Of a stretch of DNA of 64,000 bases, positions 29,742-50,152 are shown piece by piece (the first letter of the stretch is position 1; each line of letters starts with the position of its first letter). The position numbers and the translations under genes were made by a program. Source of the stretch: Flavivirga algicola (GTDB lineage Bacteria; Bacteroidota; Bacteroidia; Flavobacteriales; Flavobacteriaceae); contig NZ_JABBHF010000001.1 in the NCBI RefSeq assembly GCF_012910715.1, positions 131,170-195,169 on the forward strand. The letters are read 5' to 3'. The notes beneath the pieces are model-generated. The model made no database searches. It was not told the DNA's origin and saw only the letters and a program-made list of their open reading frames with translations.

Positions 29742-29759
29742 AATTTTAATACCAAACTA

Positions 29760-30851: not shown

Positions 30852-30855
30852 TTAA

Positions 30856-32310: not shown

Positions 32311-32355
32311 ATTATTCTTTATTAGTTTATTAGAGTTTACTTAAAATTTTACAGG

Positions 32356-33150: not shown

Positions 33151-33170
33151 TTTTATGTTCTTTATGATTT

Positions 33171-34187
33171 TTATTGTTGGCAATCCATTAATACTTTCAT
33201 CCCATCTGGGTTACTATCTATATTTCCAAATACCTGTTGAATATTACTTAACGGTTGAACATCTGTAATCATTTTTTCAAAAGGTATTTCATTAGCAGTT
33301 ATTAATGCGATAGATTTTTCATAATCTTCTTTTTCATAAACACGGGCACCAATTAATTTTAATTCTTTCCAAAAGAATTTAAATAAATCAACAGGTTTTT
33401 TTTCTCCATGAATAGCTACCATAACTATTCTTCCCCTAATTCCTGCCACTTCAGTCATTGTATCTAATGCAGGTTGTACACCAGCTACTTCAAAAACAAC
33501 ATCAGCCAATCTGTTTTCTGTTTTGTTTCTCACATAGTCAATCAAATCAACTTTTATTGGGTTAACAGCATCTAAACCCAGCTCCTTGGCCTTTGCTATT
33601 CTTGTTTCGTTTACTTCAGAAACAATAACATCAGCTCCTGTCTCTTTGGCTACCATCGCTACTAACAACCCTATTGGGCCACCACCTAAAACAACTGCGG
33701 TTTCACCTGCTTTTAAACCACTCATTCTAACATCGTGAGTAGCTACAGATAACGGCTCTATTAAAGCTGCTAATTTCAAATCTGTTTCAGCTTTTAATTT
33801 ATGCAAAGTAAATGCTGGTACATTCCAATATTCCTGCATCGCTCCAGGACTGTCAATACCAATAAATTTTAATTTTTCGCAGACATGATTGAAGCCTTTA
33901 TCTGAAGGTTGTGCTAATCTATCATCCAAAGGACGAACAACAACCTTATCTCCTACTTCGTAACCAGTTACTCCATCTCCTAATGCATCGATAACTCCTG
34001 ACATTTCATGGCCAATAGTTTCTGGAATATTTACACGTTTGTCCATCATTCCATGATAAATATGAACATCTGTACCACATACTCCTACATATGCTACTTT
34101 TATTCTTACTTCTCCTGCAGCTGGCGCTTCAATTTCTTTTTCAAATACCGTGAAGGTTTTATTTCCTTCGTATTGGGTTGCTAACAT
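33171..34187 (-). CDS. Zinc-dependent alcohol dehydrogenase of the anhydrogalactose operon
   Basis: 338 residues, medium-chain dehydrogenase. Catalytic zinc ligands in GVCGTDVHIYHG and TIGHEMSGVID, nucleotide loop VVLGGGPIGLLVAMVAKETG. The structural-zinc cysteine cluster is absent. It resembles sorbitol/L-galactonate 5-dehydrogenases, and so suits the oxidation of C5 of 2-keto-3-deoxy-L-galactonate. It is the first gene of a five-gene operon that ends at GH117; a 19-bp regulon motif lies 158 bp upstream. Confidence 0.85.
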   Translation of the reverse strand: MLATQYEGNKTFTVFEKEIEAPAAGEVRIKVAYVGVCGTDVHIYHGMMDKRVNIPETIGHEMSGVIDALGDGVTGYEVGDKVVVRPLDDRLAQPSDKGFNHVCEKLKFIGIDSPGAMQEYWNVPAFTLHKLKAETDLKLAALIEPLSVATHDVRMSGLKAGETAVVLGGGPIGLLVAMVAKETGADVIVSEVNETRIAKAKELGLDAVNPIKVDLIDYVRNKTENRLADVVFEVAGVQPALDTMTEVAGIRGRIVMVAIHGEKKPVDLFKFFWKELKLIGARVYEKEDYEKSIALITANEIPFEKMITDVQPLSNIQQVFGNIDSNPDGMKVLMDCQQ

Positions 34188-34302: not shown

Positions 34303-34344
34303 AGCTAAATTAGAACAAAACCAAAGCAAAATAGAAATATAAAG

Positions 34345-34363
34345 ACTAGACTAAAACTTTACA
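34345..34363 (-). promoter_or_regulatory. Agar regulon motif, site A
   Basis: Minus strand reads TGTAAAGTTTTAGTCTAGT, 158 bp before the alcohol dehydrogenase start. One of five copies of TGTWWAGTTWTWRTCWAGT in this locus. Confidence 0.75.
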
Positions 34364-34716
34364 ATGTGTTAAATCAACCGAACAAAAACTAAATTACTTT
34401 ATTAGGCGTAAATAATTTTAAATTATTTATGCTTTCAATTTGTTTAAACAAAAAATATTTATGGTGAATTTACTACCTAAAAGGCAAATTACAAAAGAAT
34501 TTCTGGAAGTGTTAATAAATACCTCAAAAGAACAATAATTACCTTATCAAAGTCAGATTTTACCCTTTAATTAGAACTTAAAACACCCCCTTTTTTTGTG
34601 TCGTTAAATTACAACTATAAAATATATTTAAGCTATAATAATCTGAAACTAGAACTGTCTTAAATAATGAGCAACATTTTATTATATTCTAAAGAAGAAA
34701 ATATAAATATATGCTC

Positions 34717-36360
34717 TTATAACGAACTGATATAGTCTTCTAAATTTATATTTCTGGGTAATTCCATTTTTTTTCTAATTCTATGTCTGGAAGTATGGAC
34801 AGATTCAACTGAAATACCAAGTAACCTTGCCATTTCTTTACTAGAAAAATTTAATTTTATTAAAGCACAAACTTTCTGGTCTCCTTGACTTAAATTAGGA
34901 TATTTTTCAAAGATTTTATCATAAAACCCCTTGTTTACTTCTATAAACCTAAGCCTAAATTCATCCCAGTTTTTATTATTGTTAACAGAGACAGAGCGAA
35001 GAAGTTTGTTTAATTCAGGAATTTTTAATTTATCTGCCCCAACTCGAATTTTTGATTTTAAATCCTTTAAAAACTCATCTTTTTCAATCAACTGTAAAGC
35101 AGATGCAGCGAGTTCTTTGTTCTTTAGTTCCAATAGTTCTCTCGCTTTCTGAATTTCAATTTCTTTTGTTTTATTAATCAATTCCTTTTCAGTTTTATGC
35201 TTAGCTCTTAGGTGTTTAAAAAACAGGAAACCTAATAAAAGAAGGAAAACAATAGAGCCCAAAAGAATAACCCTTTGAAGTTTATTGATCTTATCTTCTT
35301 GCTCAAGTTGCTTCAAATATTGCTCTTGCAAACGTTTTTCTTGCTCTTCTTTTACAATTCTATACTCATCTTTAATCTCCAATAGTGGTTGGTTACCCAA
35401 ACTTCTACTATCAAAAAACTTAGCATCTAGATCTTTAGCGATCTTCAAGTTAGCATAAGCTTTTTGAAAATTGTTTTCCTTTAAATATAACTCCGTTAAT
35501 CTTTCATAAATTAAAGGTGTAAAGTCAATATGGCTCTTAAATTCTTTTGATATTGTTAAGGCTTTTTCATAATATGCTTCACTTTTAGATAAATCCGATA
35601 ATTCCAAGTAGATATCTCCCCAGCTTTTATAAAAATGAACCAAATAAGAAGGCTGATTTTCTTTAAACCATGGATAAATTTCCTCCATGGTTTTTAAGGC
35701 TTCTTTTCCCTTGCCTTCTTTATACAACAAATTTGACTTTTCAAATTCCAAATAAGGTCTTGGAATTACGATCTTAGACTCACCGTAATACAAAAAACAT
35801 GTATCTAAGTATTTTTGGGCAAGCTTAGGAATGTTTAGTTCTCTGTAAGTTGAAGCAATTGAATAATAATAAGGCACCAAGTCGGCTTTAGTGATACTAC
35901 CTCCTTTTTCAATTTCCTTTTGAATTTGAAGGGCTTTAATTAGGTACTCAATGGATTTATGCTCTCTCTTATAATAACTATAAATTCTTCCTAATCTATG
36001 GTAGATAACAGACAATAGTCCGACGTCATTTAATTGGTCTCCCAATAATAACGCTTTCCATAACAAATCATACGATTTAGGATATTCAGCATTCGTTTCA
36101 AAAACATAAGCCTTTTTAAGAATGGCTCTTATAGTACTTGCCGTATCGTTGGCTTTAGTATAATTATCAATACTAGTTTGAAACAAATCAATGGCAGTTC
36201 TAGGCTCTTGATGTTTTATTTTATCAGCTTTTTCAAAAGCTTGATCTGCTATTATTTTAAATGAGTCTTTACTCTTTTCTTGTGAGAAACAAAAATTAGA
36301 GCACAAAATGATCAATAAAAACCACAAATGAAAATTTCTTTTGGTTAAAAAATTAAACAT
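34717..36360 (-). CDS. TPR-containing LuxR-type transcription regulator
   Basis: The frame is open to 36432; I choose the ATG at 36360, which gives a clean signal peptide (MFNFLTKRNFHLWFLLIILC, cut after FCFSQ) and 547 residues. TPR-like helical repeats fill about 60-350 of the long frame in the periplasm, then one membrane helix (VILLGSIVFLLLLGF), a coiled coil, and a cytoplasmic LuxR-like helix-turn-helix at the end (LSQGDQKVCALIKLNFSSK, LGISVESVHTSRHRIRKKM). Such one-protein sensors are common beside Bacteroidota sugar loci. It is in the middle of the agar locus and is the best candidate to bind the 19-bp motif. Confidence 0.85.
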   Translation of the reverse strand: MFNFLTKRNFHLWFLLIILCSNFCFSQEKSKDSFKIIADQAFEKADKIKHQEPRTAIDLFQTSIDNYTKANDTASTIRAILKKAYVFETNAEYPKSYDLLWKALLLGDQLNDVGLLSVIYHRLGRIYSYYKREHKSIEYLIKALQIQKEIEKGGSITKADLVPYYYSIASTYRELNIPKLAQKYLDTCFLYYGESKIVIPRPYLEFEKSNLLYKEGKGKEALKTMEEIYPWFKENQPSYLVHFYKSWGDIYLELSDLSKSEAYYEKALTISKEFKSHIDFTPLIYERLTELYLKENNFQKAYANLKIAKDLDAKFFDSRSLGNQPLLEIKDEYRIVKEEQEKRLQEQYLKQLEQEDKINKLQRVILLGSIVFLLLLGFLFFKHLRAKHKTEKELINKTKEIEIQKARELLELKNKELAASALQLIEKDEFLKDLKSKIRVGADKLKIPELNKLLRSVSVNNNKNWDEFRLRFIEVNKGFYDKIFEKYPNLSQGDQKVCALIKLNFSSKEMARLLGISVESVHTSRHRIRKKMELPRNINLEDYISSL

Positions 36361-37109
36361 ATATAAGTGATTTTTATAGGTAAAATTCATTGATTTGTAT
36401 GGTTGAAACGTGAAATGTAAAAATAAAAACATTATTTATATATAGATATAAAATCACGTATTTTTATTTTTAAATGCATTATTAAAGTTCTTAGTTAATC
36501 TGTCGATAACACCTCAATTTACTAACAACCAACATCTTCCAATAGATCAAATTTATTCCAACATACAATTACCGTAATAATTTGAAAGAAAAAAGCCATA
36601 GACATTACATGAATAAAATAAAAATTTGGCTTTAATATTCTTCATATTCCCTTAAAATCAAAAAGAAATGAATTACTTACGATTAAATGAAGTAATTTTC
36701 AAACATAAACGACATTGAAATTTAACCGTTCTATAAATTAAAATACAACAAATGTTATAGTGGTTCTTAAATCAATTATAAATCAGGTGATGGTCAGCTG
36801 TAATAATCTGCATGTATAGTTTTAATCAAGTAAAAAAACAATTTTTTAACATATTTAATTTGTTACTTTATTATCAAAGTTATTTTTTCAAAAAAAGCCT
36901 ATTAAAATTAATTATTATATTCTAATTTTCACATTTTTTCTTGTTTAAAAATATCAATTGATAAAGGGGGTCGATTAATTTTAGATATAATCACGGGAAT
37001 AAAAACAAAACCCAGAATTTAGATTCAAAAAAACATTAATTAATGGCTAAACAAAAGAAATATTGTAGATAAAACCGAGTTTAAAAACTAACCAAAATAA
37101 CGATCCATT
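36361..37109. other. Divergent regulatory region between regulator and crotonase genes
   Basis: About 750 bp, very AT-rich, no supportable gene. It holds regulon motif E (36813-36831), pointing at the crotonase gene, and weak AAAGCCA/TGGCTTT arms near 36588-36635. Confidence 0.6.
36813..36831 (+). promoter_or_regulatory. Agar regulon motif, site E
   Basis: Plus strand reads TGTATAGTTTTAATCAAGT, 278 bp before the crotonase start. It matches site C (GH86) in 17 of 19 positions. Confidence 0.65.
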
Positions 37110-37883
37110 ATGTCACAAATAATTCGCCTAGAAATAAAGAAAAGAATAGGTTACATCATTATCAACAAACCCAAAGCAAATGGATATGATATTCATTTTA
37201 TGAAGTTACTGGCAGAAAAAATAGAAGTCGCAGCGCTTAATGATGAAGTAAAAATTATTGCTTTAAAAAGTGCTTTACCAAGATTCTTCTGTGCTGGTGC
37301 AGATATAAAAGTATTTCAAAAAAATACAGTTGTTGAAAATAAAGAAATGGTAAACTATGCTAATTTAGTTGCAAAAAAACTTCACGAAATTCCTAAAATA
37401 ACCGTAGCCTTAATAAATGGACATGCTTTAGGAGGGGGACTTGAATTGGCTTTAGCCTGTGATATTCGTTTAGCCAGTGATGCAGACTACCAAATTGGCA
37501 TGTCTGAAATAAATCTAGGGCTAATGCCAGGTAACGGGGGCACACAACGACTCATTCGGCTTATAAATTTAAGTAGGGCATTAGAATTCTTATTAAAGGG
37601 GAACTCCATTACACCTGATCAAGCTTTTGATATAGGCTTAGTCAACCAATTCTATCCAGAATCGGAATTTGAAGCACTTAGTACAGCTTATTTAGAAAAT
37701 TTAGCTTCAGGGTCGGGATCTGCCATGAAAGCAATAAAACAAGCCGTAAATCAGGGAATTGAATTATCTTTGGAGGAAGGTTTGCTATTAGAAACCAAAT
37801 TAGCAGATTCTTTGTACGATACAGAAGATGCTAAAGAAGGGTTGAAAGCCTTTATTGAAAGAAGAAGTCCAAATTTTAAATAA
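37110..37883 (+). CDS. Enoyl-CoA hydratase/isomerase family protein (crotonase)
   Basis: 257 residues. Oxyanion-hole motifs [11 protein letters not shown] and [16 protein letters not shown], and the catalytic Glu region [17 protein letters not shown] are intact, so it should be active on an acyl-CoA. The family normally acts in fatty- or amino-acid degradation; no other acyl-CoA gene is nearby. It is followed 8 bp later by an aldehyde dehydrogenase gene and carries regulon motif E upstream, so it is tied to agar use, though its substrate there is unknown. Confidence 0.9.
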
Positions 37884-37891
37884 AACATAAC

Positions 37892-39337
37892 ATGAAGCCA
37901 AAAATATATAATTGCTACATTAATGGTGAGTGGATTAATAAATCATCAGGCGAAAAAATAGAAGTAGAAAACCCAGCTAATGGAGACATCTTTGCTGAAG
38001 TTTACTGCAGTAGTTTAGATGAAGTACAATACGCATTAGAATCGGCAGAAAAAGCACAATTTGCATGGCAAATGTTACCAGTTCAGCAACGGGCAAACTA
38101 TTTATACGCTATTTGCGAGAAGCTAAAAGAACGTAAAGAGCATTTTGCCAAATTATTGGTTATGGAACAAGGTAAAACTTTGGTGGAAGCTCGGTATGAA
38201 GTAGATGACACCATAAGATACCTCTCATATTCAGCTGAAGCTGGTCGACGTATTCAGAGCGCCATTTTCCCTTCCGATTTACCCAACGAGCAATTATCTA
38301 TTCACAAAGTGCCTTACGGGGTAACGGTTGGCTTAATGGCTTTTAATTATCCGTTGGCTTTAATTGGTCGTAAAATAGGCCCTGCTTTGATTACTGGAAA
38401 TACCATGGTCATTAAACCTTCAGAATTAACACCCGTTACTGCTTCTGAATTTTGTAAGATTATTGAAGAAGTTGGACTACCAAAAGGCGTTATAAGCATG
38501 GTTGTTGGTTATGGGCATGATGTTGGAGCCCATTTAGTATCTAACCCGCTTACAAGGCTGGTTTCCATGACAGGAAGTACACGGGCAGGACAGGCAATCT
38601 ATAAAGGGGCTGCAGACAATGTTGCTGGTTTGGTATTAGAATTAGGGGGCAAAGCTCCTTTCATCGTTCTCGATGATGCCGAAATTGACAAAGCTGTAGA
38701 AGCAGCAGCAATTTCGCGTTATGCCAACTGTGGCCAAGTATGTATTTGCAACGAAATGGTATTTGTAGACGATAAGATAGCTGATGAGTTTACTGAAAAA
38801 CTAATTAAAAGGGTAGAGAAAATTAGAGTTGGAGACCCTATGACGGATGTAGACATGGGGCCTAATTTAAGTTCTAAAGGCTTAGAACGTATCGATAGTA
38901 TTGTAAAAGAAAATGTTGCACAGGGAGCGGAATTGGTTATGGGTGGAAAACGACCAGATGGCGCTTCATTTGAAAAAGGTAATTGGTACGAACCTACTAT
39001 ACTCACCAATGTAAAGCCCAATCAGGCAGCAATACAAGAAGAGATGTTTGGTCCAGTTTTACCAATCGTTAAAATTAAAGGTTATGAGGAAGCAAAAGAT
39101 TTATTAAATAAAAGAGACGATAGTTTATCAGCTTATTTATATACCCAAAATCATAGATTAATTATGCGTTCTATACAAGAGTTTCAAATTGGTACCATTT
39201 TTATCAACAAACAAATCGTTGGTTATATTCAGGGTTACCATTCAGGTCACAAACGAAGTGGTATTGCTGGTGAGGATGGTATTTATGGCATCGAGCATTA
39301 CTTACAGAAACGAACTATCTACATGAACTATGAATAA
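37892..39337 (+). CDS. Aldehyde dehydrogenase, AldA-like (second copy in locus)
   Basis: 481 residues. [20 protein letters not shown], catalytic Glu in [13 protein letters not shown] and catalytic Cys in [13 protein letters not shown]. It is a paralogue of the enzyme at 30856-32310 but clearly diverged. It may be the actual anhydrogalactose dehydrogenase, or oxidise another aldehyde such as lactaldehyde. It forms a pair with the crotonase gene. Confidence 0.88.
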
Positions 39338-39403
39338 ATATATAACGAGATAATTTAAAACCAGTAAATATTTCGGCATTTTAATTATGTATTTGTCCAT
39401 ATA

Positions 39404-39419
39404 CACTTAGCTCTAAGTG
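39404..39419. promoter_or_regulatory. Small palindrome between ALDH and GH16 genes
   Basis: CACTTAG, CT, CTAAGTG: perfect 7-bp arms with a 2-base centre; TTTGTC and GACAAA lie further out. It could be an operator or a weak terminator of the ALDH gene. Confidence 0.3.
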
Positions 39420-39526
39420 ACAAATACTCTGATAACTATAGAAACCACTTACAAGTAGGCCTTTTCTTCTTTTATAGAGCAAGCGGTTAACCATATGTGC
39501 TTTAAAATAAAATGATCATCATGATA

Positions 39527-39545
39527 TGTTAAGTTATTGTCTAGT
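39527..39545 (+). promoter_or_regulatory. Agar regulon motif, site D
   Basis: Plus strand reads TGTTAAGTTATTGTCTAGT, 62 bp before the GH16 lipoprotein start. Confidence 0.7.
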
Positions 39546-39607
39546 TTATTACTCATGAGTACTTTACATTTTTGACTAATTTTATTCCATAAAAAAACAA
39601 TATAGCT

Positions 39608-40606
39608 ATGAAAATACCCAATATTAGTATTGCATTACTTTTTTGCGCATTAATCTTTGTTAGTTGTTCAAGATCACCTAGCATTGTTCTGCCAGAAGAC
39701 ACAAATCAAAACCAACCTCCTGTAGAAGAAGAGGAAATGGAAGAAGAAGAAGAAGAAGAAGAAGAGGAAGAGGAAGAAACATGGATCACCATTCCCGTAC
39801 CAGCGACTCCAGAAAGCGGTAAAGAATGGGAATTTCAAAGTGATGTTTCAGATAATTTCGAGTACGATGCACCTGCAGGCGACAAAGGAGCTACATTTTT
39901 AACCAAATGGGATGACTGGTACCATAATACATGGACTGGCCCAGAACCAACAGTTTGGAGAAGAGACCATTCTCTAGTTGCCGATAATCAATTACAACTC
40001 ATTGCCAGTAGACCAACTGGTACTACAATTACCAATGCTGGCGTTATTAGTTCCAAAAAAAGGGTGGTATATCCTGTTTATATTGAGGCTCGTGTAAAAA
40101 TAATGAATTCAAAATTAGCTAATGGTTTTTGGTTGCTTAGCCCAGATGACACACAAGAAATTGATATTGTTGAAGCTTACGGCAGTGATATTTGGAAAAA
40201 TGCTTGGTTTGCTCCCGATCGTGTACATTTAAGTCACCATGTATTTATCAGGGATCCTTTTCAAGATTGGCAGCCAAGTGACGAAGGTAGTTTTTATACA
40301 GATGGTACTACTATTTGGAGAGAAAATTTCCACCGCTTTGGAGTGTACTGGAAAGATCCATGGAATTTAGAATATTATGTTGACGGAAAGCTTGTAAGAA
40401 CCAGGTCTGGTGTTTCTGAAATTGACCCGCTTGATTACACAGATGGTACTGGTTTAAGTAAAGAGATGGATATACTTGTTAGTGTAGAAGATCAGACTTG
40501 GAGAGCTAATGACGGACTATCACCCACTGATGAAGAACTTGAAAATTTAAGCGATAATACTTTTAAATTAGATTGGATAAGAGTATTTAAGCTCGTAGAC
40601 AAATAA
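39608..40606 (+). CDS. GH16 beta-agarase, lipoprotein
   Basis: 332 residues. Lipoprotein signal with lipobox FVSCSRS (Cys near residue 20). A glutamate-only linker of about 20 residues at 40-58 is followed by the GH16 domain: SDVSDNFEYDAP, WLLSPDDTQEIDIVEAYGS (catalytic Glu-x-Asp-x-x-Glu), VHLSHHVFIRDPFQDWQPS, FGVYWKDPWNLEYYVDGK and KLDWIRVFK. These strings are close to characterised beta-agarases of GH16. It would sit on the cell surface and make neoagarooligosaccharides. It stands alone, with motif D upstream and a strong terminator downstream. Confidence 0.92.
   Translation: MKIPNISIALLFCALIFVSCSRSPSIVLPEDTNQNQPPVEEEEMEEEEEEEEEEEEETWITIPVPATPESGKEWEFQSDVSDNFEYDAPAGDKGATFLTKWDDWYHNTWTGPEPTVWRRDHSLVADNQLQLIASRPTGTTITNAGVISSKKRVVYPVYIEARVKIMNSKLANGFWLLSPDDTQEIDIVEAYGSDIWKNAWFAPDRVHLSHHVFIRDPFQDWQPSDEGSFYTDGTTIWRENFHRFGVYWKDPWNLEYYVDGKLVRTRSGVSEIDPLDYTDGTGLSKEMDILVSVEDQTWRANDGLSPTDEELENLSDNTFKLDWIRVFKLVDK
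39724..39779 (+). repeat. GAA/GAG triplet repeat coding a poly-Glu linker
   Basis: About 18 triplets, nearly all GAA or GAG with one ATG. The repeat is in frame, so length changes would alter the linker between lipid anchor and catalytic domain without breaking the gene. Confidence 0.85.
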
Positions 40607-40624
40607 TTTAGACTAAACTCAATT

Positions 40625-40659
40625 AAAAAAATGCCCTTTCTTGGAAAGGGCATTTTTTT
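40625..40659. terminator. Bidirectional intrinsic terminator
   Basis: Arms AAAAAATGCCCTTTC and GAAAGGGCATTTTTTT around a 3-base loop TTG. It lies between the convergent GH16 and GH2 genes and can serve both strands. Confidence 0.9.
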
Positions 40660-40676
40660 AATTGAAAAACATTAGT

Positions 40677-43151
40677 CTAAAACCCTCTAGCCGTAGGCAT
40701 TTCCTTGTCAGCTTCATTTACACTTTCTTCTGCTCCTAACCCAGGGTAATATCTAAAATAATTAGCCCATCCATATTTTTGCTTTATATTAAAAGCTTCA
40801 AGACCAATCGTTCTCAATACAGCCTTGTCTTTTACCTTATCTGCAACCAATAGCATATAATCGTTGGTAGACAATACACTTCCCTCTACATCAACAAGCT
40901 CTACTTCTACATAAAACCGATCTCCTAATTCGCCTGGCACCTTGCATGATACATCAACATACTTAGCAGAACTATCTGCTGCTATTTCAGAGAAATCAAA
41001 ATGTTCCTCTTTAACAATTGATTTATTATTATTTAAAAATTTTATAGTTGCTTTACAATTACTATACAACTCGTAATAATCATTAACCACCCATAATTCG
41101 CCTTTAAATACTTCACCTGGTAACCAACGTCTATTATAGTGTTTCATAGTAATTAGAACAGGTTGATAAGCCTTTCTTACATGATCGAAAGACAATTTCT
41201 TTTCTTGATAATAATCGACAATTCCCCATTTCATATCTGGAGCAAATGTGATGTAATGACAAATACAGATCGCACTTGTTCTTGGTTTTCTAGTTCTGAA
41301 ATGCTCCAGGGCATATTGAAAAATAACACCTTGCGCTATTTGCGTAGCCTCTACAAACTTTTCGAGACTATCTCTAGATTGGTCACCAAGCACTTCAAAA
41401 TTAAGTGTTCGTAAAGCATCAAAATCTGTCCAGTGGTGCCCCCAACTAGGTCCAGGAGGCCAGATTTCGTTTTCAGGAATAAATTTCTTGATACTTTCCA
41501 CATTTGGACACGAAGAAATTGCCAGCTCTGGAATTACAGCATAATCTAAACTAGGAAAATAATCTTCCATCACAAATTCGCCTTCACCGTAAAACAGATC
41601 ATTGGCATGATAACTTTCATTAGGTTTGAACCCAAGATTTACCCCAACCTCATCACTTAATGGCGAGGACGGGATGTAATGCAATGAAGTATAAGGTTTT
41701 ATAGCTTTCCCTAATTCATTGACAAAATTCAAATTGTGTTGTGGGTCTGAAGCTGTCATAAACAACTCTTCCGAACCTTCCAAAAGTACAATACAAGGAT
41801 GATTACGCTGTTCTTTAACAGAGGCTACAGCTTCTCCAAAAACAGCCTGTTTAAATGCCTCATCTTTAGGTAAAGACAAACTCGCTAACGGCAATACGTC
41901 TTGCCAAACGGTAATTCCCGCTTCGTTACATAATTGATAAAAATATGGTATTTCTTCTGGATGCCATCCAAAAATTCTTAGGTTATTAAAATTAGCCTCT
42001 TTAGCAAGGCGGATCAATTCTTTATACTTACTTTTATGAGCACGTCCCATAAATATATCTGGTGGTCCTCCCCAAGTTCCAGAACGCATAAAATGACGTT
42101 TTCCATTTATTAAAACTGTCCAAGGGTTTTCTACTTGGTCTTTAGTAAACCCAGGGTTATGAACCATTTTAACTTCTCTAATTCCGAATGAAGTTGTAAC
42201 CGTATCGTGATGGTTTTCCCCTTCCAACACGGTTACTTTGGCCGTATATAGATTTTGGTCACCAAGATCCCAGGGCCACCAAAGTTTGGCATCATCTACA
42301 TCTAAATTTAATGTAAAATTATTTGTCCCATTAGCGACTGAAACCATAGCTGAAACCTCATATACTTTCGATTTAAAGTTTTCGCCTTCAACCTCAACCT
42401 TAAGCTGTACATCCTTAAATGAATCGTTATGGTTTTCTAATTCAACTTCAATATCAAGCTTTGCGGAGTTTTCAGAAAGCAACGTAGATTTCACATAGGT
42501 ATCTTCTATTGTTACTGTTCCCATAGCTTCCAAATACACTGGTTTCCAAATACCTGTAGGCGGTAAGCTTACCCAATAGTCGCCATGCCAAGCTGGTTTA
42601 CGACCTGCCACTTGACTGTAACGCCTTGGAGCTGGGTGCAAACGTATCATCAATACATTTGTTCCAAAACGTAAGTTCTCAAAACGAATGGTTTTTGATA
42701 CATCAAACTTAAATTTGGAAAACATGCCCTCATGCGTGCCTAAAAATTTACCATTTAACCACACATCACAAGCAAAATCCACACCATCAAACACAAGCTG
42801 AATCCGCTTATTGAACATTTCTTTCGGGACATCAAACTGACGTTTATACCACCACTCATTTTCGGGAACCCACTTTGCCTTTAGGCTATTTCTTCCAAAA
42901 TGTGGATCTTCTAATCGACCAGCTCGCCACAAATCTGTATAAACATCTCCAGGAACTTTGGCATAAATCCAATTAAAGGAATCTCCTGTAATGTCAAAAT
43001 TTAGCTCATGAAAGCCTATCTTTACACCTTCATCAGGCCTAATACCTTCCATTTGCCAATTGTTTCCACTTAAATCAAACACAATTTTTTCGTTAGAGAC
43101 AATCCCGTCTCTACTCATAAAATCTTTTTCTTCTTGACTAATATTCTTCAT
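40677..43151 (-). CDS. GH2 glycosidase, candidate agarolytic beta-galactosidase
   Basis: 824 residues without a signal peptide. Sugar-binding domain (about 50-215; VDFACDVWLNGKFLGTHEG), Ig-like domain (about 215-325), TIM barrel (about 330-620), C-terminal beta domains. Family landmarks: NNLRIFGWHPEEIPYFYQLCNEAGI, and a nucleophile region YAVIPELAISSCP. The acid/base region reads IVLLEGSEELF, so the usual Asn before the Glu is Ser. The domain plan is that of beta-mannosidase-like GH2 enzymes. From context it probably removes galactose from agar oligosaccharides in the cytoplasm. It follows the GH50 gene by 25 bp. Confidence 0.82.
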   Translation of the reverse strand: MKNISQEEKDFMSRDGIVSNEKIVFDLSGNNWQMEGIRPDEGVKIGFHELNFDITGDSFNWIYAKVPGDVYTDLWRAGRLEDPHFGRNSLKAKWVPENEWWYKRQFDVPKEMFNKRIQLVFDGVDFACDVWLNGKFLGTHEGMFSKFKFDVSKTIRFENLRFGTNVLMIRLHPAPRRYSQVAGRKPAWHGDYWVSLPPTGIWKPVYLEAMGTVTIEDTYVKSTLLSENSAKLDIEVELENHNDSFKDVQLKVEVEGENFKSKVYEVSAMVSVANGTNNFTLNLDVDDAKLWWPWDLGDQNLYTAKVTVLEGENHHDTVTTSFGIREVKMVHNPGFTKDQVENPWTVLINGKRHFMRSGTWGGPPDIFMGRAHKSKYKELIRLAKEANFNNLRIFGWHPEEIPYFYQLCNEAGITVWQDVLPLASLSLPKDEAFKQAVFGEAVASVKEQRNHPCIVLLEGSEELFMTASDPQHNLNFVNELGKAIKPYTSLHYIPSSPLSDEVGVNLGFKPNESYHANDLFYGEGEFVMEDYFPSLDYAVIPELAISSCPNVESIKKFIPENEIWPPGPSWGHHWTDFDALRTLNFEVLGDQSRDSLEKFVEATQIAQGVIFQYALEHFRTRKPRTSAICICHYITFAPDMKWGIVDYYQEKKLSFDHVRKAYQPVLITMKHYNRRWLPGEVFKGELWVVNDYYELYSNCKATIKFLNNNKSIVKEEHFDFSEIAADSSAKYVDVSCKVPGELGDRFYVEVELVDVEGSVLSTNDYMLLVADKVKDKAVLRTIGLEAFNIKQKYGWANYFRYYPGLGAEESVNEADKEMPTARGF

Positions 43152-43176
43152 ATATTTTTAATAATAACGTATGTTC

Positions 43177-45324
43177 TTATTGTGCTCTACGAAATTCATA
43201 CATCCCATATGTTGTTTCTTTTACTTTTTCTATGAGCTCTTCATAGGGATTATCGCAAACATCTATAAATCCGACATTATAATTTTCACCATCAAAACGT
43301 CCTGTATTTGGCTCATCTATATACTGAAACCAATGTGCTCCAACAATATATGGGTTCCGTAATGCTCCCTGAATGTAATCTTGATAATGCTGCCCTCGTT
43401 CTGCTTGATCTTTCGATTTTTTTACACCTGGATGAAAACTTCCCCTATCTAGGGCGCCAAAATGAAACTCGCCTATCATAATAGGTTTATCAACTCCATC
43501 AGGAAGTGACAAGTTTTCTACACTGTATTCATATTTATTGAAACTCATAATATCTAAATACTTGCCGGCAGCAGTGAGTACGACATCATTATTTGCCCAA
43601 GCAAATCGACATCCTAAATAGTTTTGGTTAGGAGCCACACGCTTTAACTCTTCATTGATGATTTTAAAATAAGCATCCGCTATTTTTTCATAAAAAGTGA
43701 CAAGATCAACCTTGGCTTTTTCTAAATCAGGGGTTTCTATGGAAGTTAAAAGCCCTCCCCATGATTTATAACTTGTTCCCCATGTATTATTAAGAGCTTC
43801 AATTTGATTGTATTTTAATTTAAGGTCGTTAACAAACTCAATCTTAGCAGGTTGGGTTTCAGGGCTCTTTAAAGTTCCTTCAGAAAGCGACCCTAACAAT
43901 CCCCAAGACAATTCGTTATCGACAAAATAACCTAAACACCAAGGGTTATTTGCGCCTTCTTTCTGACGTTCAACCGAATTTCTCACGGCAATTCTAAAAT
44001 TTGGATCGAACACATCATGAAATTTCCCCCAAAACCCTTCAGAACCTTCGATTTTCGGAGTCCCGTTAATCCATATAGATCCAACAAATGGTGTTTTCTC
44101 CTGACGTATCGCTCCAATATCAGATACAAATCCGAAAGTATTCATTCCCCAGTCTTTAATTCGCTTATGCGTCATATCCTGAAAGGTTTTTAGCCAATCA
44201 TCTCCATATTTTCTATATAAATTACTTTGATAAAAATTATACGAATCGTACGGAAGTTTGTCTTTATAAAATCCATGGGTAGCAAATGTTCCTTTTCCAT
44301 AAAAGGATGAAAATTCGCTATCTCTTTGGGGAAGGTTTTTAAAATAGTTTTCTCGGTGTGTAATACCTGTATGCACTGAATTTGAAGACACACAATTTAA
44401 ACCTGCCGACCAAAACAGGTACCCTTCTGGATCGACTATCCACCATTTGCCATCCACCTTTTCTGTTCTAAAAAAGCCCGTCGCTTTTAATTTGGGACCA
44501 GCTTTCCAACCTCCGTATTTTCCTATGTTTTCTGGTCCTTTGCTTGTTTCTAAATATGCCAATTCACTTTCTGCTGCCTTTTTAAGCGCTTCCTCAGAGT
44601 GCATTTTATTTTTCCAATCATCATGTATAAACTGACCATATTCATCTATAAAAGGGAAAAAATCATCTGGGTTTCTTTTTTCTAAAGTTCCAACAGCCCT
44701 AACATTATCAACCGTAAATTGATTTTCTTGTGTTGCATAACGAGAACAAAATGTCAGCTCATCAATTTTACTTATATCTGTTTTTATTTTTCCAGGAACG
44801 CCCCGAAGGCCATTAACTTCTATTTGTGGATCAAAAACATATGGTGTCCAGGCTAAATCAATAGTGATAGTTTTGCTTTCGCCTGGGTTCAGATCGACAT
44901 AATCGGAACAATACCAACGTACAAGTCCATCTGGGTCGTTACCAACAAATAATTCTACTTGAATAAACTCATCCCCTATATTTGAAACATCTGCTTTTAC
45001 TTGATAATAATCTTTTAAATTCCAGGGTTTATCTTTTGAACTAAATAGTTTTATACCTGGTTCTTTTATGGTAAAACCATTATTTACTTTTATATAATTA
45101 TTGTCTTCTGTTTCGACCAGCTCAAATGTGGCATCTTGTGCTTTAATCAAAGATTTGTCAGCATTTTCAAAATCGAATAAAACCAGCGTATCTTTTTTAA
45201 CAACTATGTCTTCATTGTTTGTTTGTTGTTTACATCCTACAAAACATGGTAGGATTATGAAGCTTAATAACAGTTTAAAAAACAATACTTTTATTAATAG
45301 ACTTCCATCACCTAGACTTTTCAT
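43177..45324 (-). CDS. GH50 beta-agarase, lipoprotein
   Basis: 715 residues. The lipoprotein signal ends in PCFVGCKQQ (Cys near 31). A beta-sandwich, CBM-like domain covers about 45-215, then the GH50 barrel (about 255-710): VDPEGYLFWSAGLNCV, acid/base Glu in YFVDNELSWGLL, nucleophile Glu in MIGEFHFGALDRGSF, and HWFQYIDEPNTGRFDGENY. GH50 enzymes are mostly exo-agarases that release neoagarobiose, the likely substrate for the transporter encoded 6 bp upstream. It could be on the outer surface or in the periplasm. Confidence 0.94.
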   Translation of the reverse strand: MKSLGDGSLLIKVLFFKLLLSFIILPCFVGCKQQTNNEDIVVKKDTLVLFDFENADKSLIKAQDATFELVETEDNNYIKVNNGFTIKEPGIKLFSSKDKPWNLKDYYQVKADVSNIGDEFIQVELFVGNDPDGLVRWYCSDYVDLNPGESKTITIDLAWTPYVFDPQIEVNGLRGVPGKIKTDISKIDELTFCSRYATQENQFTVDNVRAVGTLEKRNPDDFFPFIDEYGQFIHDDWKNKMHSEEALKKAAESELAYLETSKGPENIGKYGGWKAGPKLKATGFFRTEKVDGKWWIVDPEGYLFWSAGLNCVSSNSVHTGITHRENYFKNLPQRDSEFSSFYGKGTFATHGFYKDKLPYDSYNFYQSNLYRKYGDDWLKTFQDMTHKRIKDWGMNTFGFVSDIGAIRQEKTPFVGSIWINGTPKIEGSEGFWGKFHDVFDPNFRIAVRNSVERQKEGANNPWCLGYFVDNELSWGLLGSLSEGTLKSPETQPAKIEFVNDLKLKYNQIEALNNTWGTSYKSWGGLLTSIETPDLEKAKVDLVTFYEKIADAYFKIINEELKRVAPNQNYLGCRFAWANNDVVLTAAGKYLDIMSFNKYEYSVENLSLPDGVDKPIMIGEFHFGALDRGSFHPGVKKSKDQAERGQHYQDYIQGALRNPYIVGAHWFQYIDEPNTGRFDGENYNVGFIDVCDNPYEELIEKVKETTYGMYEFRRAQ

Positions 45325-45330
45325 GTGTTC

Positions 45331-46893
45331 TTATTTATTAATTAATAATTTTTCTAATTCTTCTAATGATTTCCCTTTAGTTTCAGGAACTTTAAACCAT
45401 ATAAATGCCAAGCCTATTACTGCAAACACAGCATATACTAAGAAAGTTGTTGAATTACCTAATTTAGAAAGCTCCCATGGGAAAAGTAATTGAACCAAGA
45501 AAGCCACAGCTAAATTTATAAAACCGACAAATGATATGGCTAAGCCTCGTATCTTGTTTGGAAATAATTCTGAAAACAACACCCACATAACAGGTCCTAT
45601 AGATGCAGCAAAAGATCCTACAAACCCTAATATTCCAATTAAAATTAAAAGGGTATTCATTTTTGCTCCAGCAGTTACAATAACAGCTTCATTGGCCTTA
45701 GCAGAAGCTTCCCCTAAAGTATCGACTAAAGCAGACTTAAAAGCTAAATCATTATCGAAAGTCTTATCCTGCAATACAACAATTTGTTCTTTATTAATAG
45801 CTTCTGGAAGGCTTGCAATCGCATCGGCATCTAATGAATAAGTAGCAGAACTAAATCCGTAGGTCAGCAAGAATAAACATAAAGCAATACCAGCCATTCC
45901 AATAATCAACAATGGTTTTCTTCCAAGCTTATCTATAGTCAATATGGCTATAACCGTAAAAACCAAATTAGTGAGCCCGACCAATATCGCCTGTACAAAA
46001 GAGGCATCAGTTCCAATTCCTGTTTGTTCAAAAATCATTGGTGCATAAAACAAAACTGAGTTTATACCAACAATTTGCTGAAAAACACCAACAACCAACC
46101 CTATAATAATAACTTTTCTCATTGATTTTTTAAACAAGTCTCCCAGCTTTGACTTTTCTTTATTTCTAGCTTCAAAAATGCTCTTTTCAACTTCCTTAAT
46201 CTGATTTTGTGCGTCTTCTTCAGGCACTACTTTTTTCATGACCTCTAAAGCCTCATTTTTTCTGTTTTTAATCATTAACCACCTTGGGCTTCTAGGCACC
46301 ATATGCAAGCCTAAATAGTATAAAATAGCTGGTATAGCCTCAATGCCTAACATCCACCTCCAATTCCACTTTCCAAAACCTAACGATTGCGTCCAGGAGG
46401 CATTAGAGTCTCCCCATTGAAGTATTAAATAATTGGTAAAAAAGGCTAACGATATACCTATAACAATGTTTAATTGATTAAACGACACTAGTTGACCACG
46501 TTTATCGGGAGGTGCAACCTCTGCTATGTACATGGGCGCAATGATTAAGGCAGCACCAACAGCCAACCCTCCAATCATTCTAAAAATAATTAACCAATAA
46601 AATGTGGTAGCTAGCGCAGAACCAATAGCCGAAATTGTAAATAAGATCGCTGCATATTTTAATAACTTGCATCGTCCATATTTATCACTCATAGGGCCAG
46701 CAATAATCATCCCTAAGGCTGCTGTGAGCGTAATAGAACTTACTGCCCAACCCAATTGTATTTTTGTAAGATTAAATTCAGGTTCTATGAATTTTACCAC
46801 TCCAGAAATTACAGAAGCATCAAATCCTAATAAAAAACCACCCAATGCAACAATAGCTGCAATTCTAATTGTGTATAATTGTTTTCCAGACAT
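45331..46893 (-). CDS. Sugar-porter family MFS transporter
   Basis: 520 residues with 12 membrane helices. Sugar-porter motifs: DKYGRCKLL, RMIGGLAVGAALIIAPMYIAE, PRSPRWLMIKNRKNEAL, GINSVLFYAPMIFE and the end VPETKGKSLEELEK. A larger than usual loop (about 355-410) sits in the second half. Members take up monosaccharides with protons. In this operon (with GH50 and GH2) it may import galactose, anhydrogalactose or neoagarobiose; the family makes a monosaccharide the safer guess. Motif B lies 226 bp upstream. Confidence 0.92.
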   Translation of the reverse strand: MSGKQLYTIRIAAIVALGGFLLGFDASVISGVVKFIEPEFNLTKIQLGWAVSSITLTAALGMIIAGPMSDKYGRCKLLKYAAILFTISAIGSALATTFYWLIIFRMIGGLAVGAALIIAPMYIAEVAPPDKRGQLVSFNQLNIVIGISLAFFTNYLILQWGDSNASWTQSLGFGKWNWRWMLGIEAIPAILYYLGLHMVPRSPRWLMIKNRKNEALEVMKKVVPEEDAQNQIKEVEKSIFEARNKEKSKLGDLFKKSMRKVIIIGLVVGVFQQIVGINSVLFYAPMIFEQTGIGTDASFVQAILVGLTNLVFTVIAILTIDKLGRKPLLIIGMAGIALCLFLLTYGFSSATYSLDADAIASLPEAINKEQIVVLQDKTFDNDLAFKSALVDTLGEASAKANEAVIVTAGAKMNTLLILIGILGFVGSFAASIGPVMWVLFSELFPNKIRGLAISFVGFINLAVAFLVQLLFPWELSKLGNSTTFLVYAVFAVIGLAFIWFKVPETKGKSLEELEKLLINK

Positions 46894-47262
46894 CTACTTA
46901 TTTTTTAATTGTTGTTTTCTATTTTGAATATTTTAAGGCACTAGAAGTTTCTATTAAAGAATCTCCTCAGACTCTGTAGTTTTTATATATACAGTATATA
47001 AACCAATCTGAACTTTGATTGCTTTTCGTTTAGCTTATGGCCTCTATAGATATGTTTTGTGATTTTATAATATTAACCTGTAATATAGGCTAATTTTAAT
47101 GTCTCATACATAAATCATACTAGACAAAAACTTTACAAAATCTTAATATAACGGCGCCTATAAATTGCTAGTTCATTTATAATAAGATTATTAATAACCA
47201 AACCCTTTTAATTGCTATATCTCCCGTTTAATTAATTACTTAGAAACAAAACTGCTTTAAAA
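46894..47262. other. Regulatory region upstream of the transporter operon
   Basis: About 370 bp between the end of the GH86 gene and the transporter start. It contains motif B; no gene is seen. Confidence 0.6.
47119..47137 (-). promoter_or_regulatory. Agar regulon motif, site B
   Basis: Minus strand reads TGTAAAGTTTTTGTCTAGT, 226 bp before the MFS transporter start. It differs from site A in one position. Confidence 0.75.
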
Positions 47263-49902
47263 TTATTTTTTAATAATTAACTTAGAAAAGATATAATCGT
47301 TGTTTTCTTTATGGGTAGTAATAAAGTAAATACCGTTAGGCAAGTTTCTAACTTTAATCAGGTTATTAACTTTCAAAATCTTCTTAGACAATATTAAACT
47401 TCCTACATCACTATAAATTGAAACCGTTCCGTTAATCATTTTATCAGGTACAACAAGTAAAAACTCATTACTCGTTGGGTTGGGATAAATAAGGCTAGCT
47501 TCTTGAATAAAAACACTTTCATTATGAACACCTTGACATTCCTTATCTGTTGATATCTTTATGGTATTTTTTCCATTTCTTAATTCAAGATCAATTTCAT
47601 TAAAAGAAGTCGTTATTATTTTACCATTTAAATCGATGTGGTAAACTTTGCTTCCAGAGAGTTTTAAATTTACAGAACGAGAAAACTTATCTACTTTTGA
47701 AAATACATCTAAGGCATCTGGTTCTGTTATTTCAATATCAAATTCTATATTATAATCGGGATACCCTTCTACTGTAATAATAAGTTTATAAGTTCCAGCA
47801 CTTAAATCGCTAACTTTTAAGTTATTTGTAAAGTCGAAACTTTCATCAACCCCGTTTCCAGATATATTGAGCTTATAATTATGCCGAAATCGTGTATCTA
47901 TTTCTATTTCTCCATTACTTTTATCTGGGCAGGTTGTACTAGTCGATTTAATTTTATAATTATCAGAAGGGAATGTTGCTGGGTCAATGTCTCTTATATT
48001 ATGGCTAAAATTAAATACCTGCATGCTTACACTACTAATATGACCTCCATCATCATTAAATTGAATAGCAATGGTATTATTTGTTTGAAGTAAATCGAAA
48101 GTTACTGGAATTTCTAAAACCCCAAAAAAACGTTCCCTTTGAGCTTGGTCGTAACCACGCCAATCTGTTGGAACGGTAATATCTTGATTATTAATTTTTA
48201 CAGTAGGGTGCAGTGATTTGCCATGCTCGCGTCCAACCCCTATTCGCAACACAGCTTCTCCATAAGTTTTTTCTTTTGAAATATTATTGATATTGAATAT
48301 GATATCCTGATTGGCACTTATGGATTTTAGGTAAGATGTGGCATAATATTTTTTCTCATCGGAAGTTTTATCAACCTGAATAACATCACTAAATGTATAT
48401 TCTAGAATCATAGTTGATTCTGCCCCTAATTCCACCGACGATATGTGAGACGTCAATGTCTCTTCATCCAGAACAGGCACATTTCCAGATAGTGTTAAAT
48501 GCCTTTTAAAAATACTGTTAATATTTCTATTGGCATCATCAAATATATTTAGGTTAATAGTTGTCGGTTCAAAATTCAAATTATTCAATATAATATATCC
48601 TTTATCGCCTTTCACATAAGCATCAACCTGAATATCCAGGTCATCTGAAGTCGTATCAACCCTAGTACCTTCTACATTTTGCCATAATTGATAAAACTTA
48701 ACCATATCACTGTACACCCATTGCCCCGTATAACTTGAAGGTTCATTTTCCTTACGCATTAAACGATGGTTGTAAGGGATATCCAATGTATTATCATACC
48801 CCCACTCTGCTTTTACTATAATAAAATTTATAGCAGATGCTATAGTTTCTGGCCGTTCCAAAAAGGACATCAATTGAGAGCTTGAAGCTTTTATATGTAA
48901 CCAATCCCTAAAAGGGCTCCATGTATCTCTTGAATAATCATGCATTTGTGCACCATATTCTGAAATCACAATTGGTTTTACCACATCAAACGATAGTTTA
49001 CTGTAATGTTCCAACATATCCAAAGTAGCTTCTATATTACTTCCCGAACGCAATTCTTTCTGTCCATTCCGTATCGAAGGGAAATCATATAAATGTATGG
49101 ACCAAAAATCCATTTTATCCCCAGCTACATCCATAAACAATTTCCATCGATTATGCCACCGTTGAAAATCGCCAACTTCAAAATCAGGGAAAGCAGTAGT
49201 ATACCCTCCTACCTTTAAGTTTGGGGCCTGTACTTTAATGGCATCGGCCACTTCCACATGAAAGTCAGCTATCTCCTGAATCGAATTTGTGTAATCCAGT
49301 TTTCCACCTAAGGCTTCATAAGCAGGTTCGTTAATTATTTCAACATAGGTAGGTGTCTCTTCGCTATTTCCTCCATGAAATTCGTTTACATAACGCCCCA
49401 TGTACTCCCCTACAGCAGTAGCATTTGCCAGTTTCCATCCTTGACTTGTTGCACGTTGACTCTCTCCAGTCCAAAAAGGATGTAACTGCCCTGCAATAAC
49501 TAAATTTTTCCTATCTTCATATGGGTGCCAAGCTGTATTTGCTGCAAATAAATTGGAATAAGACAGCCCCCTAGAGGCTATTTCCACAGGATCTACATAA
49601 CCTGGCCTAGCTGGATCTTGTTGCATCTGATTTAACTGCCAAGTAATACGTCCAGTCTCTCTACCTAAATATACATTATAACCATTCAAAAAATGATCTC
49701 TCAAATCTGATGTAAAATTATTACCATTCCATTCATTTTCTCCTTGATTGGAATGGATCGTTATAAATTTTGACCTATCAAATTCAGAAAAGTTTTCTAC
49801 AGAATGTTTAACATTGAGATTCACATTTATATTTACCTGAGCAAAAGATGCACTATTAAGAATAAAAAGGGATACAAAAAAGAGTAGATATAAATTTCTC
49901 AT
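47263..49902 (-). CDS. GH86 beta-agarase/porphyranase with type IX sorting tail
   Basis: The frame is open to 49995, but the ATG at 49902 (879 residues, MRNLYLLFFVSLFILNSASF) starts a proper signal peptide, and motif C lies inside the longer frame. The GH86 barrel follows, with acid/base Glu in YVEIINEPAYEALGG and nucleophile Glu in KPIVISEYGAQMHDY, then beta domains. The last 75 residues are a type A sorting domain of the type IX system: LIYPNPTSNEFLLVV, NLPNGIYFITT and a lysine-rich end. It is thus exported to the surface. Agarase against porphyranase cannot be decided by eye. Confidence 0.9.
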   Translation of the reverse strand: MRNLYLLFFVSLFILNSASFAQVNINVNLNVKHSVENFSEFDRSKFITIHSNQGENEWNGNNFTSDLRDHFLNGYNVYLGRETGRITWQLNQMQQDPARPGYVDPVEIASRGLSYSNLFAANTAWHPYEDRKNLVIAGQLHPFWTGESQRATSQGWKLANATAVGEYMGRYVNEFHGGNSEETPTYVEIINEPAYEALGGKLDYTNSIQEIADFHVEVADAIKVQAPNLKVGGYTTAFPDFEVGDFQRWHNRWKLFMDVAGDKMDFWSIHLYDFPSIRNGQKELRSGSNIEATLDMLEHYSKLSFDVVKPIVISEYGAQMHDYSRDTWSPFRDWLHIKASSSQLMSFLERPETIASAINFIIVKAEWGYDNTLDIPYNHRLMRKENEPSSYTGQWVYSDMVKFYQLWQNVEGTRVDTTSDDLDIQVDAYVKGDKGYIILNNLNFEPTTINLNIFDDANRNINSIFKRHLTLSGNVPVLDEETLTSHISSVELGAESTMILEYTFSDVIQVDKTSDEKKYYATSYLKSISANQDIIFNINNISKEKTYGEAVLRIGVGREHGKSLHPTVKINNQDITVPTDWRGYDQAQRERFFGVLEIPVTFDLLQTNNTIAIQFNDDGGHISSVSMQVFNFSHNIRDIDPATFPSDNYKIKSTSTTCPDKSNGEIEIDTRFRHNYKLNISGNGVDESFDFTNNLKVSDLSAGTYKLIITVEGYPDYNIEFDIEITEPDALDVFSKVDKFSRSVNLKLSGSKVYHIDLNGKIITTSFNEIDLELRNGKNTIKISTDKECQGVHNESVFIQEASLIYPNPTSNEFLLVVPDKMINGTVSIYSDVGSLILSKKILKVNNLIKVRNLPNGIYFITTHKENNDYIFSKLIIKK

Positions 49903-49957
49903 ATTTAGATATTTATAAACAAATATCGCAGTATTTACAAAAGAACTAAATAAACCA

Positions 49958-49976
49958 ACTTGACTAAAACTAAACA
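49958..49976 (-). promoter_or_regulatory. Agar regulon motif, site C
   Basis: Minus strand reads TGTTTAGTTTTAGTCAAGT, 56 bp before the GH86 start. Confidence 0.7.
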
Positions 49977-50152
49977 CTGTAGGCTTTTCTTCCAAAACAC
50001 CTAAAAAATAAACAACTATAAATCAACAACTTAACCATTTATTATATAAAAAAAGTTGATTTTGATAGTGTTTTTTAGACTTAGACAATTCATAAATAAC
50101 ATTTTACTAAGTAAAATACTCGTTACTAGAAACCCCATATTGTTTGTTAAAA

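Follow-up and report, generated by a model that had tools for sequence, protein, structure and literature searches.

A 19-bp candidate operator of agar-use genes in Flavivirga algicola and its linkage to a membrane-spanning TPR-LuxR protein

Results

A 19-bp motif precedes the transcription units of the agar locus

The motif TGTNWAGTTTTTRTCWAGT is very probably the agar regulon's operator, recognized by a membrane-spanning one-component activator, the TPR-LuxR protein encoded at 34717-36360, which very probably turns the agar genes on. Coordinates are those of the window, by which we mean the whole 64,000-nucleotide stretch that was analyzed (C1:131170-195169 of the 5.02-Mb genome, 37 contigs). 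The sites, the regulon, their conservation, their linkage to TPR-LuxR genes and their promoter phasing were established by computation. The preliminary description had proposed an agar-activator site with TPR-LuxR as candidate regulator; that reading is supported, and the assignment withstood a direct test against a neighboring pair of AraC-family regulators.

A pattern scan of the window confirmed five exact matches to TGTWWAGTTWTWRTCWAGT, at the coordinates and on the strands listed below. Thirteen of the 19 positions are invariant across the five copies, and the 11-bp spacing of the direct repeat GTNNAGT / RTCWAGT was likewise borne out; in its best form the motif is an 11-bp direct repeat of GTCWAGT. 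Every copy has the direction of the gene that follows it and is kept in both near relatives (G009 and G010). The operators, with their approximate distances to the start codon, and the genes around them (Pfam assignments; the regulator is discussed later) are as follows:

28623..34187, minus strand: operon encoding alcohol dehydrogenase (ADH), SDR, aldehyde dehydrogenase, MR_MLE cycloisomerase and a GH43-fold protein (GH117-like by context)
34345..34363, minus strand: 19-bp operator before the zinc alcohol dehydrogenase gene and anhydrogalactose operon; 158 bp
34717..36360, minus strand: TPR-LuxR regulator, with predicted signal peptide, periplasmic TPR domain, one transmembrane helix and cytoplasmic LuxR-type HTH
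36813..36831, plus strand: 19-bp operator before crotonase-ALDH, divergent from the TPR-LuxR gene; 279 bp
37110..39337, plus strand: unit encoding crotonase and aldehyde dehydrogenase
39527..39545, plus strand: 19-bp operator before GH16; 63 bp
39608..40606, plus strand: GH16 gene
40677..46893, minus strand: unit encoding an MFS transporter, a GH50-like agarase and GH2
47119..47137, minus strand: 19-bp operator before MFS-GH50-GH2; 226 bp
47263..49902, minus strand: GH86 agarase/porphyranase, with porphyranase domains and a T9SS sorting tail; ATG start at 49902
49958..49976, minus strand: 19-bp operator before GH86; 56 bp

The label GH50-like is that of the preliminary description, Pfam showing only an Agarase_CBM match just below the cut-off. 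A degenerate further repeat lies 11 bp upstream of the MFS-GH50-GH2 operator (47130-47148). The mechanical GH86 reading frame, 47263-49995 on the minus strand, begins with a TTG at 49995 and overlaps the fifth operator; the ATG at 49902 is the sensible start, giving 879 aa and leaving the operator upstream.

Allowing three mismatches, the window holds 10 matches against 2.97 +/- 1.55 in shuffled sequence, and none of 100 shuffles reached 10. The whole genome contains five exact matches, all in the window; the random genome-wide scatter of equally good matches that had been named as an argument against the motif was looked for among exact matches and not seen. With two mismatches allowed, the genome yielded 19 matches and the reversed pattern 15, so that matches this weak carry little information by themselves; freeing the fourth base and allowing one mismatch yielded 10 against 0 for the control. 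Twelve of the own-genome matches carry two mismatches, and we examined the surroundings of seven, of which three were kept (those before GH2, a second GH86 and a GH16-like gene) and four dropped.

For wider scans we built a position weight matrix from 18 distinct sites of G000, G009 and G010 only, the three own-genome two-mismatch sites included; a GH86-type relic of G010 (discussed later) and three other G009/G010 sites, one of which precedes a GH86-like gene (L087) and another a susC-like gene (L088), are not part of it. No other place in the window reaches a score of 13, so there is no such site in front of the thiamine, cyd or hexuronate genes, as had been stated. The title given to the motif at the outset, five promoters of the agar locus, holds in that all five are real; it is too narrow in that the motif also occurs beyond the locus, with ten sites genome-wide. 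The five further sites lie 102-135 bp before their genes:

L020: susC, 7 kb past the window edge
L021: GH16-like lipoprotein gene
L022: gene for a 247-aa secreted protein
L023: GH2
L024: second GH86

The L021 lipoprotein has no Pfam GH16 match at E 0.001; it is 26% identical to the window GH16 (E 1e-14), and 67% identical to a G223 protein, the gene of which also has a site. The 247-aa protein falls in with a group of small secreted proteins from other genera, similar in turn to the N-terminal module of the GH86 enzymes of those genera. We infer that all ten sites serve red-algal galactan breakdown. Among 74 proteins downstream of sites, Pfam recognized 19 TonB plug domains, 12 GH2, 14 T9SS tails, 4 GH86-type, 4 GH16, 4 GH43-fold and 2 ADH.

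Conservation in near relatives

The motif is conserved in front of orthologous agar genes of near relatives. Nine of the ten sites persist in G009 and G010, in which the promoters of the window genes were located via the genes, while the flanks diverge. Over nine promoters and two relatives (18 comparisons), motif identity was 95.9% (328/342 positions), a value somewhat flattered because the sites entering it had been found through their own sequence, and the 13 core positions were 99.1% identical; the flanks were 61.7% identical in the 40 bp upstream (444/720) and 80.6% in the 40 bp downstream. Gene-anchored promoter alignments, which are free of that location bias, show the same conservation of motif over flank.

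By tblastn, eight of the nine downstream genes are orthologous in G009, where the 247-aa secreted protein was not found, and seven in G010, where a match to the 247-aa protein is confined to its last 76 residues and all that remains of GH86 is a 53-residue N-terminal match. For the tenth site, that of the second GH86, no counterpart was shown in either relative. A GH86-type promoter, with site and flanks like those of the window GH86 promoter, lies between thiC and MFS in G010 (L062:2050-2292), probably a relic left after loss of the GH86 gene.

Distribution in the family

Among 397 genomes sampled from the family (Flavobacteriaceae), 15 contain the exact pattern, with 28 matches between them; the reversed control gave 3 matches in 3 genomes. 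As an agar marker we used the MR_MLE cycloisomerase of the window, chosen by context and found in 32 genomes (E up to 1e-100). TPR-LuxR was found in 27 genomes (E up to 1e-60), all within those 32, and an AraC homologue in 33 (E up to 1e-40); absences in these counts are absences of close homologues, because at most 3 to 6 of the best first-look candidates were scored per genome (3 for TPR-LuxR, 6 for AraC). The same 14 of the 15 exact-motif genomes have both the cycloisomerase and TPR-LuxR, and 10 of the 15 have AraC. The exact motif of G362 is accompanied by none of the three. Fisher tests of association with the exact motif gave p = 1e-17 for TPR-LuxR and 9e-9 for AraC over all 397 genomes, and p = 0.043 and 0.79, respectively, within the 32 marker genomes.

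When one mismatch was allowed, 30 marker genomes (the 32 minus G000 and G010) contained 84 matches, in 25 genomes, versus 8 for the control; 30 marker-negative genomes, hand-picked among those of about 3.9 Mb and more, contained 14 versus 21 for the reversed pattern. The mean number of matches was 3.28 in the 25 TPR-positive marker genomes versus 0.4 in the five TPR-negative ones (p = 0.0014), and the presence of AraC had no effect on it (p = 0.46). Four marker-positive genomes of the same genus, G001, G002, G006 and G008, showed only a modest excess (10 sites versus 3 reversed); TPR-LuxR is present in G001, G006 and G008, and single sites lie near TPR-LuxR or ADH in G008 and G001.

The motif follows TPR-LuxR genes

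In other genomes we scanned the surroundings of TPR-LuxR genes, 41 stretches of up to 20 kb each, counting as a site any score of 13 or more. Thirty-seven of the 41 loci had at least one, 78 sites altogether, and the reversed matrix found 3, at 3 loci. That the motif might be a product of chance or of promoter composition, as the AT-richness of the genome and the near-background count of two-mismatch matches could suggest, is refuted by this 3-to-78 comparison and by the reversed-pattern controls, which behave likewise; we assign it practically no probability. Most sites near a TPR-LuxR gene either lie 100-500 bp upstream of it and point away from it, or directly follow its 3' end, ahead of the next gene; both positions are also seen in the window.

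None of 11 control stretches, six around AraC genes and five around cycloisomerase genes of genomes in which TPR-LuxR was not found, had a site. This bears on the most visible competitor, an AraC-family pair beside susCD (C1:202.9-204.7 kb; L020:7816-9547), for which the 11-bp repeat would be the two-HTH site of one AraC monomer. The pair adjoins a susC promoter that carries a site, in G009 and G010 too, its homologues occur in 24 of the 32 agar-marker genomes, and it is associated with the motif over the whole sample; however, that association vanishes within the marker genomes, as given above, six genomes with TPR-LuxR in which no AraC homologue was found carry 18 sites, between one and five apiece, and three AraC-positive marker genomes in which TPR-LuxR was not found have 0, 1 and 0. 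In this double dissociation the motif follows TPR-LuxR and not the neighboring AraC pair, which is very unlikely to be the motif's regulator. The tandem pair is strongly linked to agar all the same, and may control another aspect of its use.

A second set comprised 78 named loci (those of G009 and G010 excluded), from Zobellia, Maribacter, Tamlana agarivorans, Flavobacterium flevense, Aquimarina, Agaribacillus, Flammeovirga, Fulvivirga and Saprospiraceae, among others; it overlaps in part with the genomes of the 41 loci and is not fully independent of them. Sites were present at 50 of 57 loci of Flavobacteriia and at 13 of 21 other or unplaced loci, 130 in all against 2 in the reversed control, with the latter 21 loci contributing 22 sites against 1; no site of score 13 or more was found at the remaining seven and eight loci, respectively, among them the Zobellia loci L330, L333 and L359, which have a canonical helix. 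In the full set of 80 named loci, agar-type genes were present in the scanned stretch at 60, by loose criteria. In Zobellia species other than Z. galactanivorans, TPR-LuxR stands beside the same kinds of genes, and Z. uliginosa has a site before a susC-like gene. The same predicted operator stands before functionally linked genes across species, as would be expected of a regulon.

Another agar-linked regulator encoded elsewhere (an HTCS, an OmpR/PhoB-type protein or an ECF system) might bind the motif and merely co-occur with TPR-LuxR. An 11-bp direct repeat also suits OmpR/PhoB-type regulators, and co-occurrence is not binding. Nevertheless, sites lie beside TPR-LuxR genes in many genera, also beyond Flavobacteriia, and no other regulator-like cluster is common to more than five of the 41 loci: TPR-LuxR is present in all 41 by selection, and the next such clusters, among the 32 largest and labeled by eye, occur in 5 and 4, although a diverse regulator family could be split by clustering at 35% identity. 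Together with the helix data given in the following section, these observations make another regulator distinctly unlikely.

The genome encodes two further TPR-LuxR paralogues, 50% and 38% identical to the window copy (L215:9367-11040, L216:8942-10528), at C1:19.4 kb and C32:10.9 kb. Their recognition helices are similar, one being canonical, and either might govern the sites in place of the window copy. We consider this unlikely as well, if somewhat less so than the preceding reading: the window TPR-LuxR gene has a site to either side of it, an arrangement that G009 and G010 share, and G009 lacks the 50% paralogue yet keeps the sites, though it does carry a copy of the 38% paralogue. Neither paralogue has a site of score 13 within 10 kb, which counts against a tie of the motif to TPR-LuxR proteins.

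The TPR-LuxR protein and its recognition helix

TPR_12 and TPR_8 score above the Pfam cut-off in the TPR-LuxR protein, and a PDB search returns TPR chains. The label LuxR was given by eye, both at first and here; Sigma70_r4_2 reaches 23.3 bits, below its cut-off of 25.7, and the MctR response-regulator HTH matches at E 1.9e-4, far below cut-off. Judged by eye, the protein has a signal-peptide-like beginning, with 36360 as the best start, and a C-terminal HTH, GISVESVHTSRHRIRKKM. The topology is predicted from hydropathy only: one strongly hydrophobic segment, covered by 19-residue windows that begin at residues 382-392 (571-aa reading). With this predicted layout, a sensor in the periplasm would act on DNA directly.

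The four siteless loci among the 41 (L199, L200, L219 and L224) all deviate from the common form of the recognition helix, S[VI]ESVHT[ST]R[HY]R, which argues against a different regulator, although the rule is not strict, some departing loci having sites and some canonical ones none. Further, motif position 15 is T in all 7 sites of loci with an RSR helix versus 1 of 71 elsewhere, a count in which some genomes appear under two names and from which three further loci, all C15, were dropped (helix not parsed). All seven fall into a single clade (support 1.0), and no site accompanies the independent RSR protein at L200, so that this covariation, which also speaks for TPR-LuxR over another regulator, amounts to one evolutionary event and is only suggestive.

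Operator variants with a GTAWAGT second half occur at L225:10890, L334:9628 and L214:11001, beside altered helices (SVNSVHIS, STKSVHTT); L217, with the same STKSVHTT helix, has the usual operator form.

The operator is phased with the promoter

We searched for the -7 box (TAnnTTTG, at most one mismatch) around 74 sites of score 16 or more, each counted once. The box begins 31 bp after the motif end in 31 sites and 32 bp after it in 12, that is, in 43 of 74, the other 31 having no box at either offset; the background is 1.2 per offset, and the same two-offset count upstream averages 2.3, with a maximum of 6. In a wider set of 101 sites of score 18 or more, a box was found at offsets 29-34 in 53, and an ORF start within 500 bp in 77. 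With the box set at -12 to -5, its described position in Flavobacterium psychrophilum (PMC9723704), the motif would lie at about -62 to -44. In the window, the boxes and box candidates are:

34305..34312, minus strand: -7 box TAATTTAG of the anhydrogalactose operon; offset 32, 1 mismatch
36863..36870, plus strand: weak -7 box candidate TTACTTTA of crotonase-ALDH; offset 31, 2 mismatches
39577..39584, plus strand: -7 box TAATTTTA of GH16; offset 31, 1 mismatch
47080..47087, minus strand: weak -7 box candidate TATATTAC of MFS-GH50-GH2; offset 31, 2 mismatches
49920..49927, minus strand: -7 box GATATTTG of GH86; offset 30, 1 mismatch

Some promoters of other genera carry a second copy on the same strand 41-43 bp away, or four helical turns, suggesting stacked regulators:

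L195:17232 and 17274
L227:8815 and 8856
L231:8986 and 9027
L232:10882 and 10925

Within 150 bp, second copies occur at 11, 33, 41-43 and 84 bp, with single weaker ones at 18 and 53.

Discussion

We propose that secreted GH16 and GH86 enzymes would cut agar or porphyran and that a SusCD pair would let the oligosaccharides into the periplasm, where the TPR domain may bind them or a product. The signal would then pass the single transmembrane helix, and the cytoplasmic HTH would bind one face of the DNA at the 11-bp direct repeat, in the position derived above, and recruit sigma-A RNA polymerase, with the enzymes, the importer and the anhydrogalactose pathway being switched on together. Binding by TPR-LuxR, activation as against repression, the nature of the inducer and the dimer form are put forward here as predictions, activation by a tandem dimer being suggested by the position of the sites and the 11-bp repeat. 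Counting against the proposal are the two paralogues that lack nearby sites, the modest excess in four genomes of the genus, the weaker association with TPR-LuxR within the marker genomes, the sites with no -7 box at the usual offsets and the TPR-LuxR loci that have no site.

MalT of E. coli combines a TPR-like sensor region with a LuxR-type HTH, responds to an oligosaccharide inducer and binds direct-repeat sites on one helix face; it is cytoplasmic and has an ATPase domain. Unlike MalT, TPR-LuxR has a membrane helix, and Pfam reported no ATPase domain in it. The best NCBIfam match is the BT3442 family (NF053779), which covers the TPR end, membrane helix and HTH (residues 276-544; E 3.8e-10); at 39 bits against a cut-off of 940, TPR-LuxR is a distant relative and not a member.

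Activation has indirect support from Zobellia galactanivorans, in which agar is described as inducing a cluster that encodes two regulators along with GH117, anhydrogalactose genes and a TonB receptor/SusD pair (PMC5613140), taken together with the presence of TPR-LuxR beside the same kinds of genes in other Zobellia, although three Zobellia loci have no site of score 13 or more. In Z. galactanivorans, the carrageenan locus has a positive regulator, CgrA (ZGAL_3159; PMC5698469), which is like TPR-LuxR in serving a red-algal galactan locus and unlike it in belonging to the AraC family.

The SusR-like regulators of Bacteroides (SusR, BT3705; SusR2, BT3091) are membrane proteins with a periplasmic sensor and a cytoplasmic C-terminal HTH that activate glycan-use operons with SusCD, and direct-repeat motifs have been predicted for them (PMC3878776). 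We liken TPR-LuxR to them by layout: it too is predicted to have a periplasmic sensor, a membrane anchor and a C-terminal HTH (by eye and hydropathy). The SusR DNA-binding domain is described there as having no significant similarity to other known families, whereas the HTH of TPR-LuxR looks LuxR/sigma-r4-like, below the Pfam cut-off. The SusR motif is given as two boxes 67 or 77 bp apart, in contrast to the single 19-bp box with its 11-bp repeat, and among the second operator copies within 150 bp none lies at 67 or 77 bp.

More broadly, there may be an even chance that (i) TPR-LuxR proteins are phylum-wide transmembrane one-component oligosaccharide sensors that act through one operator, at a rigid 31-32 bp from the sigma-A -7 box, and govern red-algal galactan use in marine Bacteroidota from Flavobacteriia to Cytophagia and Saprospiria, and (ii) a readable recognition code exists, replacement of H/Y by S in the HTH being accompanied by T in place of C at position 15 of the operator.

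Our search of open-licence papers found no report of the 19-bp motif or its regulator, and algal galactan sensing by marine Bacteroidota is poorly known. For an agar regulon conserved over many genera, the present analysis offers an operator that can be tested, a candidate for the sensor-regulator and a defined promoter geometry, as well as a basis for designing agar-inducible promoters for flavobacteria. It also allows regulon members to be predicted from sequence alone, including small secreted proteins of unknown function. These proteins (~210-250 aa) are recurrent regulon members in several genera, and some are like the GH86 N-terminal module; we regard them as candidate agar-binding proteins:

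L022:9838-10581
L195:14002-14634
L226:18795-19451
L259:3944-4573
L274:3907-4605
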